Source of the DNA: Pseudomonadales bacterium
Lineage (GTDB): Bacteria > Pseudomonadota > Gammaproteobacteria > Pseudomonadales > Azotimanducaceae
Length of the DNA stretch: 64,000 nucleotides
Assembly (NCBI GenBank): GCA_028285415.1
Contig: JANQPF010000009.1
Coordinates: 806,001 to 870,000, forward strand
Direction: 5' to 3'
Shown here piece by piece: positions 2,624 through 61,691 of this stretch. The first letter of the stretch is position 1. Every line of letters begins with the position of its first letter. The notes under the pieces are model-generated. The model was not told the DNA's origin and did not search any database. It saw only the letters and a program-made list of their open reading frames with translations. The position numbers were made by a program, and so were the translations under genes.

Positions 2624-2651
2624 TTGCAATGAACAACCATGTCAATAGAAT
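2624..2651 (+). promoter_or_regulatory. Candidate sigma70 promoter for the first structured RNA
   Basis: TTGCAA (2624-2629) and TAGAAT (2646-2651) are separated by 16 bp, a reasonable -35/-10 pair. The predicted start is near 2658, a few bases before the first stem of the structured segment. No TGTACA box overlaps it, unlike the second RNA promoter. Inferred from sequence only. Confidence 0.4.
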
Positions 2652-2657
2652 GCGCGC

Positions 2658-2780
2658 CATCTTCCGCTGGCTCAGCAGTATTCGAGCCTGCATTAAGCGG
2701 CAAGACGGGGCGTGCACGGTGTTCTCTCCCCTTCCTCCCATACCGTGACACGCCCTACTCCATTTCTTTCAACAACGTCG
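2658..2780 (+). ncRNA. Candidate structured RNA 1, or 5' leader of the MerR gene
   Basis: No coding function seen. Two stems are visible. The first pairs CCGCT (2664-2668) with AGCGG (2696-2700) and, inside, GGCTC (2669-2673) with GAGCC (2684-2688). The second pairs GGGCGTG (2708-2714) with CACGCCC (2749-2755), then CACGGT (2715-2720) with ACCGTG (2742-2747), 13 pairs broken only by bulged A2748. Its 21-nt loop (2721-2741) is almost entirely pyrimidine and contains CUCCCC and CCUCCC. The closing strands GGCGTGCA and TGACACGCC recur exactly in the candidate RNA after the MerR gene. There is no clean U-run, so the 3' end is uncertain and it might be a leader continuing into MerR. Confidence 0.45.
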
Positions 2781-2918: not shown

Positions 2919-3818
2919 ATGGAAGACGACAATCTGTACCGGATCGGCACGGTCGCCTCGCTGACCGGTATTTCCGTGGAACGGCTGCGCGCCTGGGAGC
3001 GCCGCTACGACCTGAGCCCCGCCCACAAAGACGGTAAAACGCGCTTCTACAGCCGCCCGCAGCTCGAGCGGCTGAAGCTGATCAAACACCTGATCGATCA
3101 GGGCCACCCGATTTCGAGCCTCGCCCCGCTGGACGAGGCGCAGCTCGAAGCGCGCATCACCGCCGAGGCGCGGGATCCCGTCATCGTTTCCCTGCAGGCG
3201 CCCACCGTGGGTCTGATCGGGCCGAACCTGCTCACGCTGGAGCAGCAGGCACAGAAAGCAGACCTGCCGTCACGTATCGAAGTGGTGTCGCGCTGGGCCA
3301 ACGTGGATGCGTTCTTCAGCGAACAGACCGCCACCGACGATCCTCAGGTGCTCATTTTCCAGCTCCCGGTTCTTGCCACGCAAACCATTGAAAATATTAA
3401 AGAATTATACCCTTCAGCGAAGCTGATTGCGGTCTATCAGTTTGCCACGGCGGAAATGGTTTCCAACGTTCAGAGCACCGGCATTCCCACGCTGAAGTGG
3501 CCGGTGACCTGGACTGAGATCGAACACACAGCCATCAGCGAACGTGGCTTTCCCGCCCGCGCCGGGCGCAGCGTGCCGCGGCGCTACAGTGACGAGGAAC
3601 TGATTGCCATCGCCGCGCAGAGCGACGATGCCACCAACTGTCCCGAGTATCTGATCGAGGCAATCCATCAGCTGAACGCGTTTGCGACCTACGCTGCCGA
3701 TTGCAGCCAGACGGTCACCAGCCCGCTCCTTTATCAGCGCGTCAGCGCCGATGCGAGCCAGGCTCGGGCGCAGCTGGAACTGGCGCTCGAAACGCTGCTT
3801 GGTGACGTGGGCACGTAA
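2919..3818 (+). CDS. MerR-family transcriptional regulator, LitR/CarH-like without visible B12 motif
   Basis: A 299-residue regulator. Residues 6-75 form a MerR winged helix (YRIGTVASLTGISVERLRAWERRY, then TRFYSRPQLERLKLIKHLIDQGHPI), the version found in the CarA/CarH/LitR light-response group. The remaining 220 residues look like an alpha/beta sensor domain (VGLIGP, ADLPSRIEVV, PQVLIFQLPVL, SAKLIAVYQ), but I see no ExHxxG cobalamin-binding motif, so any signal is unlikely to be bound B12. The ATG at 2919 starts directly at the HTH; upstream in-frame starts would translate through the operator region. It lies between two structured-RNA candidates and near four TGTACA-type boxes, suggesting it controls itself and the RNA gene. 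Its signal is unknown. Confidence 0.85.
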   Translation: MEDDNLYRIGTVASLTGISVERLRAWERRYDLSPAHKDGKTRFYSRPQLERLKLIKHLIDQGHPISSLAPLDEAQLEARITAEARDPVIVSLQAPTVGLIGPNLLTLEQQAQKADLPSRIEVVSRWANVDAFFSEQTATDDPQVLIFQLPVLATQTIENIKELYPSAKLIAVYQFATAEMVSNVQSTGIPTLKWPVTWTEIEHTAISERGFPARAGRSVPRRYSDEELIAIAAQSDDATNCPEYLIEAIHQLNAFATYAADCSQTVTSPLLYQRVSADASQARAQLELALETLLGDVGT

Positions 3819-3831
3819 CGCTCATGGCTAT

Positions 3832-3839
3832 CTGTACAA
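3832..3839. promoter_or_regulatory. CTGTACAA box upstream of RNA promoter
   Basis: TGTACA (3833-3838) sits about 30 bp before the -35 box of the RNA promoter. It matches the core of the palindromes in front of the MerR gene and of the inverted repeat on the -10 box, and would allow a regulator to bind two sites around the promoter. Confidence 0.4.
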
Positions 3840-3865
3840 AACATGAACAAATTTTCAATAAAGTG

Positions 3866-3893
3866 TTGACAGGGCCCGTTTGTACTGTACAAT
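3866..3893 (+). promoter_or_regulatory. Strong sigma70-like promoter with TTGTAC-T-GTACAA operator on the -10 box
   Basis: A perfect TTGACA -35 (3866-3871) is followed after 16 bp by TACAAT (3888-3893), close to ideal. The inverted repeat TTGTAC (3880-3885), T, GTACAA (3887-3892) overlaps the -10 element, so binding of the neighbouring MerR-type regulator would occlude RNA polymerase or remodel the promoter. Predicted start is 3900-3901, where the structured RNA begins. No plausible coding start follows for more than 200 bp. Confidence 0.7.
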
Positions 3894-3899
3894 GGCTCC

Positions 3900-4014
3900 C
3901 GTAATTTAGTTACAAGGCGTGCAAGCAACTTCGTGCAGTCCTCCCTTTCAAGTGTCCTTCCCCCAGAAGAGAAGTTGCATTCAGAGGGTTCCCTCCCTCT
4001 GACACGCCTTTTTT
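3900..4014 (+). ncRNA. Candidate small RNA 2: three-way junction, C-rich loops, intrinsic terminator
   Basis: About 114 nt with no ORF, bounded by a near-consensus promoter and a T6 run. P1 pairs AAGGCGTG (3914-3921) with CACGCCTT (4003-4010). P2 pairs GCAACTTC (3925-3932) with GAAGTTGC (3971-3978). P3 pairs TCAGAGGG (3981-3988) with CCCTCTGA (3995-4002). The three perfect 8-bp stems make a three-way junction; P3, the P1 strand and TTTTTT (4009-4014) form the terminator. A short 5' hairpin GTAA/TTAC precedes P1. Unpaired loops hold UCCUCCC (3939-3945), UCCUUCCCCC (3955-3964) and UUCCCU (3989-3994), all complementary to Shine-Dalgarno-type purine runs. A trans-acting, translation-blocking RNA controlled by the adjacent MerR protein is the simplest reading. 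I do not recognise a known family. Confidence 0.72.
4009..4014 (+). terminator. U-run of the intrinsic terminator ending the candidate sRNA
   Basis: T6 immediately follows the 8-bp P3 hairpin (3981-4002) and the closing CACGCC strand. Stem plus U-run has the form of a factor-independent terminator. Between here and 4132 the sequence holds a long C-run, an AT-rich patch (4038-4057) and the palindrome CCAGCGCTGG (4064-4073), which may belong to the promoter of the next gene. Confidence 0.65.
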
Positions 4015-4132
4015 AATCCCCCCCCCTGACCCGCTCTTACAATTAACCCTCAAACTTGAACAGCCAGCGCTGGGAATGCGTGCCAGGGTTTGTATCATGG
4101 CGGCCTGATTGGATCCGAGAGAGAACCCTGCA

Positions 4133-7042
4133 TTGATCCCTCATGAAGTCTGGCGTCGTGCCAGCCGCTGTGCACTGTCCACTCCGGCGCTCATCCTGCT
4201 GCTCGCCGCCTGCGGCGGGGGCGGTGGTGGCGGCGGCAATCCAAACCCCGCGCCCGTCAATCAAACCCCTACAGCCAGCTTTACGATCAGCGCCACCACC
4301 GGCAACGCCCCTTTGAACGTGTCCGTCGACGCGGATGCCTCGGCGGACGCCGACGGCCAGATTGCCAGCTATGCGTGGGACTTCGACGGCACCCCCGGGA
4401 TCGGCGCTGTGGCGCAGCATACCTTCGAAGACCCCGGTACCTTCGAGGTGCGCCTTACCGTGACTGACGACGATGGCGCCACCAGCACAACAACCCGCAC
4501 CGTGACGGTGGAGGCCGCGGTGGTCACCTCCACACTGTCCGGCAAGGTGCGCATCCTGAGCTCTACCGCCGTTGATTCGGACGTGAACGACCGGCTGACC
4601 GTCCCGCAGAGCAACAACAGCTTCACCGAGGCACAGGATCTGCTCTCGCCGGTCACTCTCGGTGGTTTTGCCAACGTGGCTGGCACCGGTGAAAACACCG
4701 GGAATCTTTTCGCCGCCGGCGATCCACGCGACTTCTATCACATCAGTCTCGCCGGTAACGAAACCATTGTGCTGACAATTGCCGACGGCGATGCAGACCT
4801 CGATCTGCGCTTGTGGGACGACGGGTTCAATATTGTGGATGCTTCGCTGAACGTGAACTCCGAAACCGAGACCATCGAGGTCACTCAAGCCGGTACCTAC
4901 TACATCGAAGTTCTGCCTTTTTCCGGCGCAAGCAACTATGTGCTCTACGTCGGTCAGACCGCCGCTGCCTCGAGCACCAGCCTGCAACGCAATGCAGTGC
5001 GCCTCAGCGACCCGTTCATCGACAACCAGCTCATCGTCAAGCACCGGCAAAGTCAGCCCGTGCGGGCACCAGACGGCACCCGGGAGATGGTGGCACCGCT
5101 GCGGGCGGATCGCACCCGTCAACAGGCAGAGCTTGTCGGGCCTGAGCTGCCGGGGCTCTACCGCCTGACGAAGCACTCCCAGCACTCCCCTGCCCTGCCC
5201 CTACCGGCCGGGGCGCGCGTCAGCGCAGCCCAGCGGAGCCGCCTGGCGACGCTGTACCAATGGAAACGCCTGGCACAGGATCCGACCTACGAATACGCGG
5301 AGCTGAACCTCCTGCATCAACCGCATTTGACACCAAACGACGCATTCTACGCGAGCCAGTGGCACTATCCCGCCATCAACCTGCCGCTGGCATGGGATAC
5401 CGAGGTTGGAGACGCCAACGTCATCGTGGCCGTGGTCGATACGGGCGTGCTGCTGAACCATCCGGATCTGGCTCCCAAGCTGGTCGCCGGCTACGACTTC
5501 ATCAGTGATGCGGATCGCGCGCGCGATGGCGACGGCATCGACCCCAACCCGGACGACCCGGGTGATCTCGAGTTTGGCGGCTCCAGCAGCTTCCACGGTA
5601 CGCACGTTGCCGGTACCGTCGGCGCGGTCAGCAACAACGGTGAAGGTGTGGCAGGGGTGGCCTGGAATACATCGATCATGCCCCTGCGTGCGTTGGGCAC
5701 CGACGGCGGTTCAACGTTCGACATCGTCCAGGCTGTACGTTTTGCCGCCGGCTTGTCGAACAACTCAGGCACCGTACCGGCGCAGCGTGCCGACATCATC
5801 AACCTGAGCCTCGGCAGCAGCTTCTCCTCCCAGAGTGAGCAGGATGCCTACACTGCAGCCGTGCAGGCCGGGGTCATCGTGATCGCAAGCGCCGGTAACG
5901 AATCATCCGATCTGCCGTCCTACCCGTCCGCCTACGACGGCGTCGTCAGCGTCAGCGCAACCACCATCACCAACGATATCGCCACCTATTCCAACTCCGG
6001 CGCGACTATCGACATTGCTGCGCCCGGTGGATCCAACATCACCGACCTGAACGGCGACGGCATCGGTGACGGCGTCATTTCCACTATGGGCGACGACAGT
6101 GGCGGGGGTGCAATCGAGTTCGGCTATCTTGCAATCAGCGGCACTTCGATGGCCGCACCACACGTAGCGGGTGTGGCCTCTCTCATGAAGGCGATTCATC
6201 CGGGTCTGACGCCGGTCGAATTCGAAACGGCAATGGTTGCAGGCCAGCTGACCGACGACCTCGGCTCACCCGGCCGCGACGATGTCTTCGGCTATGGATT
6301 GATCAACGCGCAGAAAGCCGTATTCGTGGCACAGCAGCTCGCCAACGGCCAGGGTGTCGACCCCGGACCCATTCTTACCGCCTCGGCAAGCGTGCTGAAC
6401 TTCGGTGGTTTCATCGACAGCCTCAAGGTCACGCTGCAGAACGTCGGTAGCGGAACCGTGAACATAGCGAACGTCAGCAGCAGCGAACCCTGGTTGACCA
6501 CGGACGCACCCGGCAGCGCGGATGGACTCGGCGAATACACGGTCAACCTCGATCGCACGGGTCTCGCGGACGGTGCCTACCAGGCAACAATTACGTTTGC
6601 CTCGGACGCCAACGATGTGGAAGTGGGTGTCATCATGCAAGTCTCGAGCGCAAACGTGACTGCGGATGCGGGGCTCTTCTACATCATCCTGGTGGACGAA
6701 AACGGCGATACGCTGAACGCATTGACCGAGCTTGTGCTCGCCAATCAGGGTGAATACCCATTCACACTCACCGACGTACCGGCGGGACAGTACCGACTGT
6801 TCGCAGGCACTGATGCCGACGACGATGCACGCTTGTGCGATGCCGGTGAAGCCTGTGGCGCCTATCCGACGCTGGATGCGCCGGACTTTCTCGCCATCAA
6901 CGACGACCGGGACGATCTGGATTTCGAAGCGGGTTTCCGCGTGAATCTAACGACAACCACCAACGCGGTGACCAGCGACGCTGGAACGCCATCCGCGCCG
7001 ACCGTCAGCAAACCGCAGGAGCGCCCGCAGGATGCGCGTTGA
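4133..7042 (+). CDS. Lipoprotein subtilisin-like serine protease (S8) with PKD and PPC domains
   Basis: About 969 residues. A signal peptide ends in the lipobox LLAAC followed by an eight-glycine linker, so the enzyme is lipid-anchored. Then come a PKD domain (near residues 40-130), a bacterial pre-peptidase domain (DFYHISLAGNETIVL ... GTYYIEVLPF), a propeptide-like stretch and the subtilase domain with the triad D436 (VVDTG), H491 (FHGTHVAG) and S672 (GTSMAAPHVAG). The C-terminus has BACON/Ig-like beta repeats. The start is taken as TTG 4133, 10-15 bases after GAGAGA; an in-frame TTG at 4109 has no such site. The next gene overlaps by 11 bp and encodes a PrcB-like lipoprotein, suggesting a two-subunit surface protease. 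Target substrates are unknown. Confidence 0.88.
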   Translation: MIPHEVWRRASRCALSTPALILLLAACGGGGGGGGNPNPAPVNQTPTASFTISATTGNAPLNVSVDADASADADGQIASYAWDFDGTPGIGAVAQHTFEDPGTFEVRLTVTDDDGATSTTTRTVTVEAAVVTSTLSGKVRILSSTAVDSDVNDRLTVPQSNNSFTEAQDLLSPVTLGGFANVAGTGENTGNLFAAGDPRDFYHISLAGNETIVLTIADGDADLDLRLWDDGFNIVDASLNVNSETETIEVTQAGTYYIEVLPFSGASNYVLYVGQTAAASSTSLQRNAVRLSDPFIDNQLIVKHRQSQPVRAPDGTREMVAPLRADRTRQQAELVGPELPGLYRLTKHSQHSPALPLPAGARVSAAQRSRLATLYQWKRLAQDPTYEYAELNLLHQPHLTPNDAFYASQWHYPAINLPLAWDTEVGDANVIVAVVDTGVLLNHPDLAPKLVAGYDFISDADRARDGDGIDPNPDDPGDLEFGGSSSFHGTHVAGTVGAVSNNGEGVAGVAWNTSIMPLRALGTDGGSTFDIVQAVRFAAGLSNNSGTVPAQRADIINLSLGSSFSSQSEQDAYTAAVQAGVIVIASAGNESSDLPSYPSAYDGVVSVSATTITNDIATYSNSGATIDIAAPGGSNITDLNGDGIGDGVISTMGDDSGGGAIEFGYLAISGTSMAAPHVAGVASLMKAIHPGLTPVEFETAMVAGQLTDDLGSPGRDDVFGYGLINAQKAVFVAQQLANGQGVDPGPILTASASVLNFGGFIDSLKVTLQNVGSGTVNIANVSSSEPWLTTDAPGSADGLGEYTVNLDRTGLADGAYQATITFASDANDVEVGVIMQVSSANVTADAGLFYIILVDENGDTLNALTELVLANQGEYPFTLTDVPAGQYRLFAGTDADDDARLCDAGEACGAYPTLDAPDFLAINDDRDDLDFEAGFRVNLTTTTNAVTSDAGTPSAPTVSKPQERPQDAR

Positions 7043-7529
7043 CAAGTGCAGCCACCCAAAATGGCTGTTCATGGCACTCCTCCCGGTCATCGCCGCGGGG
7101 TGCCAGGCTGGCCCACCCGTGGAAGTGAGCGAAATTCTCAATCACGCCATGTGCAACACGCTGCGCAAAGGTCTGACGGTGGTCGAATACGACCAACTGG
7201 CGGACATTCGCGGCGCGCGGATGCTCAACGCCCCTGCCTCGGAGCCGACCCCGGAATCAGCAACCGGCACCCTGCTGGCAGTCTCCAACGGCTCACAGCC
7301 CACGCCCGGGTATGCGTTCGAACTGCGCGAAGCGCGGGCAGACGGCGCCAATCTCGTGCTCGACTACGCCTGGCGCGAACCGCCCGCCGACGCGGTGCTC
7401 GCCCAGGTGGTGACCTCACCGTGCTCTGTCGTACGAGTTGTCAACGCCACCAACGCACGTTCGGTTGCGGCGCTCCTGGACGGCGCGGAGATTGGTCGGG
7501 TTGAGCTGCAGCCCTCAGCCACTCAGTAG
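7032..7529 (+). CDS. PrcB-like lipoprotein, probable protease-complex partner
   Basis: A 165-residue protein with a lipoprotein signal peptide (lipobox IAAGC, Cys24). The C-terminal half matches my memory of the PrcB C-terminal domain: QPTPGYAFELREARADG, then LVLDYAWREPPADAVLAQ and VVTSPCSVVRV. In Treponema dentilisin, PrcB is needed for assembly of the subtilisin-like PrtP complex. Here the gene overlaps the end of the subtilase by 11 bp, so translational coupling and complex formation are likely. The family call rests on motif resemblance. It is convergent with the phosphotransferase, overlapping it by 15 bp. Confidence 0.75.
   Translation: MRVDKCSHPKWLFMALLPVIAAGCQAGPPVEVSEILNHAMCNTLRKGLTVVEYDQLADIRGARMLNAPASEPTPESATGTLLAVSNGSQPTPGYAFELREARADGANLVLDYAWREPPADAVLAQVVTSPCSVVRVVNATNARSVAALLDGAEIGRVELQPSATQ

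Positions 7530-59420: not shown

Positions 59421-61691
<2,271 letters not shown>

Follow-up and report, generated by a model that had tools for sequence, protein, structure and literature searches.

RNA-B, a conserved structured RNA linked to a MerR-family regulator in a family of marine gammaproteobacteria

Downstream of a MerR-family regulator gene in the window (the whole 64,000-nt stretch of DNA analysed), we found a small structured RNA, RNA-B, which represents a new RNA family without a match in Rfam 15. Its conservation, with compensatory changes far beyond those of the controls, confirmed that RNA-B is real. With a second C-rich RNA (RNA-A), there are now two covariation-supported RNAs without an Rfam 15 match in a marine bacterial family whose members are mostly uncultured; RNA-B, the main one, is strictly linked to a one-component regulator. 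In our judgement it is fairly likely that the regulator and RNA-B form a module, in which the MerR protein, as a repressor, would switch an antisense RNA with C-rich loops that lowers translation of targets with G-rich or Shine-Dalgarno sequences.

Structure, conservation and distribution of RNA-B

The elements of RNA-B in the window are as follows.

3900-4014, plus strand: RNA-B small RNA (matched by model R2 at 3893-4014, E=1.1e-32; the window copy is included in R2)
3914-4010, plus strand: closing stem P1, AAGGCGTG (3914-3921) paired with CACGCCTT (4003-4010); conserved part GGCGUG/CACGCC
3925-3978, plus strand: stem P2, GCAACTTC (3925-3932) paired with GAAGTTGC (3971-3978), bearing the C-rich loop
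3936-3964, plus strand: C-rich unpaired core CAGUCCUCCCUUUCAAGUGUCCUUCCCCC, highly conserved; longest-kept part UGUCCUUCCC
3981-4002, plus strand: stem P3, TCAGAGGG (3981-3988) paired with CCCTCTGA (3995-4002)
4009-4014, plus strand: T6 at the end of RNA-B, seen in the sequence

The 5' end was placed from the promoter and the 3' end from the U-tract. The three 8-bp stems, the promoter TTGACA-N16-TACAAT, the inverted repeat on its -10 box and the T6 were all located where the preliminary description of this DNA had put them. The predicted free energy of RNA 3900-4016 was -37.9 kcal/mol (z -5.5), and none of 200 shuffled sequences was equally stable. The end of RNA-B was not among the matches of a terminator scan; there, the U-tract trails the stem that closes the junction instead of the stem of a simple hairpin.

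When 58 related genomes were searched at the DNA level, the element was recovered in the same genus. Covariance model R1, built from an alignment (A1) of 29 copies, matched 94 of 206 genomes and 18 of 37 genera of this uncultured marine gammaproteobacterial family; a second model, R2, was built from 95 copies. RNA-B was found in a single copy per genome, except for two copies in G498. An order-wide search with R1 gave matches in 9 of 390 genomes, two of which (L038 and L039) lay outside the family, and a class-wide search with R2 gave matches in 2 of 369 genomes, namely the window's own genome and L175. The three matches outside the family are weak, and none was counted as RNA-B; by tblastn, there is no MerR gene beside L038 or L039. 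As far as sampled, RNA-B is confined to one family. The core pattern occurred in 49 named records, MAGs titled Gammaproteobacteria, Pseudomonadales, Pseudomonadaceae and, once, K189A clade bacterium; in the taxonomy, the K189A clade falls within the OMG group and includes HTCC2089.

In A1, 97.4% of the cells were paired and two-sided changes occurred in 7 of 23 pairs. With 95 copies, 96.8% of the cells were paired and the number of pairs with two-sided changes rose to 15 of 23, including all modelled pairs of P2 (7/7) and of P3 (6/6). The covariation score was 0.340, compared to at most 0.106 for slid versions, although this alignment had been adjusted to the structure. When the 93 distinct copies were aligned by sequence only, the same three main stems resulted. 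Compensatory changes in the stems, one of the tests that the preliminary description had set itself, are thus present. The three-way junction proposed there is supported, but P1 is shorter than drawn: it has 6 bp (GGCGUG/CACGCC) in the consensus of relatives, and the outermost A-U pairs are unsupported. An inner CUUC/GAAG hairpin in the loop (89.6% of cells paired) was disrupted or lacking in some of the 95 copies and missing from the sequence-only fold; it was dropped as a conserved feature.

RNA-B varies least in its unpaired C-rich core, particularly in GUCCUUCCCC, so the C-rich loops noticed in the preliminary description are conserved in the aligned copies. Even a strongly diverged copy in G013 (L226), missed by the model and recognized by eye, retains GAUGUCCUUCCC between new stems. 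A U-tract ends 92 of the 95 copies. GGA is absent from the window RNA-B and from 77 of the 95 copies, while 18 have one or more.

On the other strand, positions 3910-4098 contain a 62-aa ORF, and the region might in principle code for a small protein. We consider this extremely improbable: no reading frame is conserved, each frame on either strand being open through the RNA in at most 54 of the 95 copies; the lengths of the copies are spread over the three classes modulo 3 (38/30/27); and the stems vary by compensatory substitutions. Nor had the preliminary description recognized a described RNA family, and indeed the window RNA-B had no match in Rfam 15 at the gathering threshold; relaxed E-values gave none, or weak ones far below the cut-offs. 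The titles and abstracts searched contained no report of RNA-B, which is no proof of its absence from the literature.

The MerR regulator and the RNA-B promoter

The regulator gene and the sites around it are as follows.

2864-2893: half-sites CTATACACTCTGTACA and TGTATC before the MerR gene
2919-3818, plus strand: MerR-family regulator of 299 aa, with an N-terminal HTH nearest to CarH/MlrA, a central Rossmann-like domain and C-terminal helices
3832-3849: half-sites CTGTACA and ATGAACA at 11-bp spacing, a CarH-like direct repeat, degenerate here
3866-3893, plus strand: sigma-70-type RNA-B promoter, TTGACA (3866-3871), N16, TACAAT (3888-3893)
3880-3892: inverted repeat TTGTACTGTACAA over the -10 box, presumed MerR operator

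The MerR gene lies upstream of RNA-B on the same strand at all 95 loci, with 73-266 nt between the end of the BLAST match and the start of the model. Five genomes showed a close MerR (E<=4e-85) but no R1 match. In G349 and G562, RNA-B was recovered with R2; in G027 and G563, the contig stops 53 and 110 nt past the MerR frame; in G497, the MerR match begins at base 6 of the contig, on the minus strand. In G426, G429 and G026, the MerR match contains one stop codon each and the RNA is retained.

The RNA-B promoter scored 11/12 and was the sole sigma-70-like match in 3000-5000 (shuffle mean 0.4). Within the 75 nt before P1, TTGAC was found at 80 of the 95 loci (6.6 in mononucleotide shuffles), GTACNGTAC at 74 (0.1 in shuffles) and GTAC at all 95 (20.1 in shuffles), whereas control windows 400-475 nt upstream (n=93, mostly within the MerR gene) gave 1, 0 and 20, respectively. 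These counts support both the separate promoter and the MerR-type operator that the preliminary description had assigned to RNA-B. The exact 11-bp TnnAC repeat occurred at 42 of 95 loci; shuffles gave 3.6, and windows 400-520 nt upstream gave 1. The strict tandem pattern CTRTACANNNNCTRTACA was matched in 5 of the 38 genomes searched; its same-genus matches (4 of 25 genomes) are all at the MerR/RNA locus by coordinates, and it was not matched in the window's own genome, whose site is degenerate. CarH operators are described as 11-bp direct repeats nAnnTnnACAn (PMC8156234), and the sites of PplR1/PmlR2 as T(G/A)TACA pairs 12 bp apart, PmlR2 being a repressor (PMC9758184). By their motifs, the predicted operators fit the adjacent MerR protein. 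The half-sites at 2864-2893 may indicate autoregulation of MerR.

Membership in the MerR family and an operator within the promoter would also suit activation of RNA-B, in the manner of metal-sensing MerR proteins. Classical MerR-activated promoters have a spacer of 19-20 bp. That in the window is 16 bp, and a site on the -10 box together with CarH-like repeats fits repression; activation seems to us clearly unlikely. We infer that RNA-B is transcribed from this promoter and repressed by MerR.

The position of RNA-B close behind the MerR gene on the same strand at every locus, and its U-tract end, could also be read as those of a cis structure, namely a leader, a riboswitch or a 3' UTR/terminator belonging to the MerR mRNA, and not of a free RNA. 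A conserved promoter and operator of its own, however, lie between MerR and RNA-B. An aminoglycoside-phosphotransferase-like (APH) gene on the opposite strand follows within 1.5 kb at 21 of 28 oriented loci; in the window, a PKD/PPC subtilase and a PrcB-like gene (4109-7529) separate RNA-B from the APH-type gene. Because the downstream gene varies between loci and is convergent in those 21 of 28, a role of RNA-B as a cis leader is unlikely, and we regard any cis structure as quite improbable compared with a free RNA.

In a PDB search with a profile of 45 MerR proteins, the best hits were 3whp ('Probable transcriptional regulator', 2.7e-13) and CarH 5c8d (2.9e-13), both over the HTH only. CarH and MlrA also came out on top in NCBIfam, far below their own cut-offs. 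The predicted structure (mean pLDDT 90.4, pTM 0.58) comprises the HTH, the Rossmann-like domain and the C-terminal helices; CarH headed the Foldseek ranking at TM-scores of about 0.2, and receiver-like domains were among the matches to the middle part. Class I CarH/LitR proteins possess a B12-binding domain with a ligand histidine. The alignment of the 45 MerR proteins contained no invariant or nearly invariant histidine, and none of the 13 Pfam families that they matched is a B12-binding family. The protein thus shares the HTH and the operator type with the CarH/LitR family but not the B12 domain with its histidine. Since a conserved histidine is absent, sensing or binding of B12 as in CarH is unlikely, and the idea of a B12 photosensor was set aside. 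By eye, paralogous MerR genes are followed by photolyase/cryptochrome-type-looking frames at L189, L194, L195 and L228, and by a DNA glycosylase-looking frame at L192, in the window's own genome.

RNA-A and the RNAs of sister genera

Upstream of the MerR gene there is a second C-rich RNA.

2624-2651, plus strand: probable RNA-A promoter TTGCAA-N16-TAGAAT, followed by GCGCGCC
2708-2755, plus strand: RNA-A, with P1 (2709-2714/2749-2754), P2 (2715-2720/2742-2747) and loop GUUCUCUCCCCUUCCUCCCAU (2721-2741)

The preliminary description covered neither RNA-A nor the relationship of the regulator to CarH/LitR-type proteins, nor did it mention the additional RNAs that follow related MerR genes of sister genera. 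The window RNA-A, which lacks P3, was matched by model R3 with E=1.1e-9 (the window copy is included in R3). In its alignment (A4, 27 copies), two-sided changes occurred in 10 of 21 pairs, and the covariation score was 0.154, compared to at most 0.073 when slid, the structure having been drawn on the same alignment. At E<=0.01, R3 located RNA-A upstream of MerR at 29 of the 95 loci, of which 27 had contributed their sequences to the model; six further matches in this search were RNA-B copies. At least 83 of the 95 loci include at least 350 nt before MerR; the absence of RNA-A is therefore genuine at many loci. An RNA-A copy from another genus had no match in Rfam 15 above the gathering threshold. 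Because R3 ranked the window RNA-B third (E=0.1), behind a chance match, RNA-A and RNA-B are probably, but not certainly, related.

The window RNA-A promoter has no GTAC site. Since GTAC was found in just 8 of 27 of the 110-nt regions upstream of RNA-A, control of RNA-A by MerR is not indicated. A GTTAC..GTAACAA-like repeat upstream of the RNA-A promoter (2590-2630 in the window, also at L002, L004 and L009) is perhaps the site of another regulator. A further R3 match in the window, at 61486-61551, was judged a chance hit and rejected; it lies antisense inside a catalase-peroxidase-like gene (59421-61691, KatG-like, named by eye).

Other putative RNAs lie behind the related MerR genes of sister genera (E about 1e-62 to 1e-43 for MerR). 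R3 matched behind three of six MerR genes in genus g28 (L182, L186 and L221; not L187, L220 and L222) and behind five of five in g164 (L184, L185 and L223-L225), with E-values of 7e-7 to 9e-5; these RNAs have C-rich loops with a different seed. In g24, stretches with repeated GGA were seen by eye behind related MerR genes at ten loci (L180, L181, L183, L188, L190, L214, L215 and L217-L219); L216, which ends too early, was left outside this reading. Five of these loci were folded and contain 4 to 6 ANGGA in 290-330 nt, including UACAAGGAUGU in L180 and L181. The g24 stretches have hairpins such as GCUC-AAGGAU-GAGC, and L180, L181, L183, L188 and L190 had no Rfam match at E<=1. None of nine sister loci scored above the gathering threshold in Rfam 15. 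The consensus of CsrA sites is given as RUACARGGAUGU (PMC7652899), and by its motifs the GGA-rich stretch of g24 is a candidate CsrA sponge of the CsrB type.

Hfq (PF17209) was found in 174 of the 206 family genomes. It was present in 89 of the 94 RNA-B genomes and, among the 112 family genomes in which RNA-B was not matched, in 85, which makes its association with RNA-B weak. The RNA-B genomes without an Hfq match are G012, G023, G478, G560 and G567, four of them at most 81% complete. Canonical Hfq was not found in 17 of 18 g24 genomes (15 of the 18 being >90% complete) nor in either of the two g144 genomes; the lone g24 match, in G440, is weak (1.1e-6), and G440 also has a GGA-rich stretch. 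Hfq loss concerns one clade and therefore represents at most one or two independent events.

Tentatively, these loci might reflect one sensor lineage with many RNA outputs. A CarH/LitR-type MerR repressor with mainly non-coding RNA output would, in genera with Hfq, have controlled a single C-rich RNA at first, until a paralogous C-rich RNA joined it on the other side of the regulator gene. In the genus that lost canonical Hfq, the output would instead be a GGA-rich RNA resembling a CsrA sponge, the circuit being rewired from antisense pairing to CsrA capture upon loss of the chaperone. As a natural experiment, these sister genera could show in what way a circuit changes its RNA type upon Hfq loss.

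Proposed mechanism and comparison with known systems

In the module that we propose, the MerR-family protein, which belongs to the CarH/LitR/MlrA lineage, would act as a repressor: it would bind the TGTACA half-sites over the RNA-B -10 box and the upstream 11-bp repeats, and would thereby keep the RNA-B promoter off. MerR would be released by a signal, for which light, photo-oxidative stress and a partner protein are plausible candidates, and an RNA-B of about 115 nt with a terminator end would then be produced. The junction of RNA-B would expose a strand that is constant and rich in pyrimidines (GUCCUCCC and GUGUCCUUCCCC); this strand could pair, probably with Hfq, with G-rich or Shine-Dalgarno stretches of target mRNAs and reduce their translation. 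In some genera, RNA-A, which is similar but has a different C-rich loop and its own promoter, would act alongside RNA-B.

By analogy, RNA-B most likely acts like sX13 of Xanthomonas, its C-rich loops pairing with G-rich or Shine-Dalgarno sequences. sX13 is described as a strongly structured RNA of 115 nt, whose C-rich (4C/5C) loops repress via G-rich motifs near the start codon (PMC3771888), and RNA-B likewise has conserved C-rich unpaired loops. sX13 differs in being described with three stem-loops and as acting without Hfq, and the account of it consulted mentions no MerR neighbour (PMC3771888).

Targets were sought with patterns in which 9 to 11 nt complementary to the seed stand ahead of an ATG. 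GGGGAAGGACAN{2,9}ATG gave 5 matches in 4 of 38 genomes (reversed control, 2) and AGGGAGGACTN{2,9}ATG gave 2 matches in 2 of 38 (reversed control, 7), neither with a recurrent gene. For GGGAAGGACN{2,9}ATG, there were 44 among the matches listed, in 23 of 40 genomes (reversed control, 30); 29 loci from these 44 (L230-L258) were read, and the 12 frames of at least 50 aa, compared with each other, share no gene. As the matches did not converge on any gene and hardly, if at all, outnumbered those of the reversed controls, the proposed target step was drawn from analogy. hfq mRNA, as in the case of sX13, was considered as a target and rejected: in 14 genomes, with 12 starts found, only ordinary Shine-Dalgarno-like sites were seen.

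The lack of a recurrent long mRNA site, together with the high conservation of the C-rich core across 18 genera, would also suit an RNA-B (and RNA-A) that mainly pairs with or displaces one constant partner, such as a GGA-rich CsrA-binding RNA or a protein, instead of many mRNAs. CsrA was found in 8 of 9 genomes tested, and a sister genus has the GGA-rich RNA-like stretch behind a related MerR gene. Yet G561 has RNA-B and no CsrA match, and seeds of many-target sRNAs can be strongly conserved too. We consider a constant partner rather unlikely and retain pairing with many mRNAs as our reading.

The regulatory RNAs CsrB/RsmZ (PMC7652899) find a resemblance in g24, where many ANGGA motifs occur in the RNA-like stretch behind a related MerR gene. 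The window RNA-B, however, does not show the several GGA motifs in hairpin loops that mark CsrB/Rsm RNAs; its loops are complementary to such motifs.

With CarH and the class II LitR proteins PplR and PmlR2, the window MerR shares the DNA-binding domain, TGTACA half-sites, the 11-bp repeats of CarH and, as proposed here, the repressor logic (PMC8156234, PMC9758184). The half-sites of PplR/PmlR2 have N12 spacing, unlike the repeats at RNA-B (PMC9758184). Further differences are the missing conserved B12 histidine and, in the modelled protein, the Rossmann-like domain before the C-terminal helices. The CarH/LitR-lineage regulators covered in these accounts are described as switching protein-coding genes (PMC8156234, PMC9758184), whereas the conserved predicted target of the window MerR is an RNA gene. 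A regulator of this lineage with an RNA gene as its conserved target would represent a new output.

The CcsR RNAs contain a pyrimidine-rich motif, CCUCCUCCC, in which they resemble RNA-B. CcsR1-4 of Rhodobacter sphaeroides are small RNAs of the photo-oxidative stress response; they differ from RNA-B in that there are four homologous copies, which are transcribed together with ccaF1 under the control of RpoHI/RpoHII, and in that they belong to alphaproteobacteria (PMC8307010).
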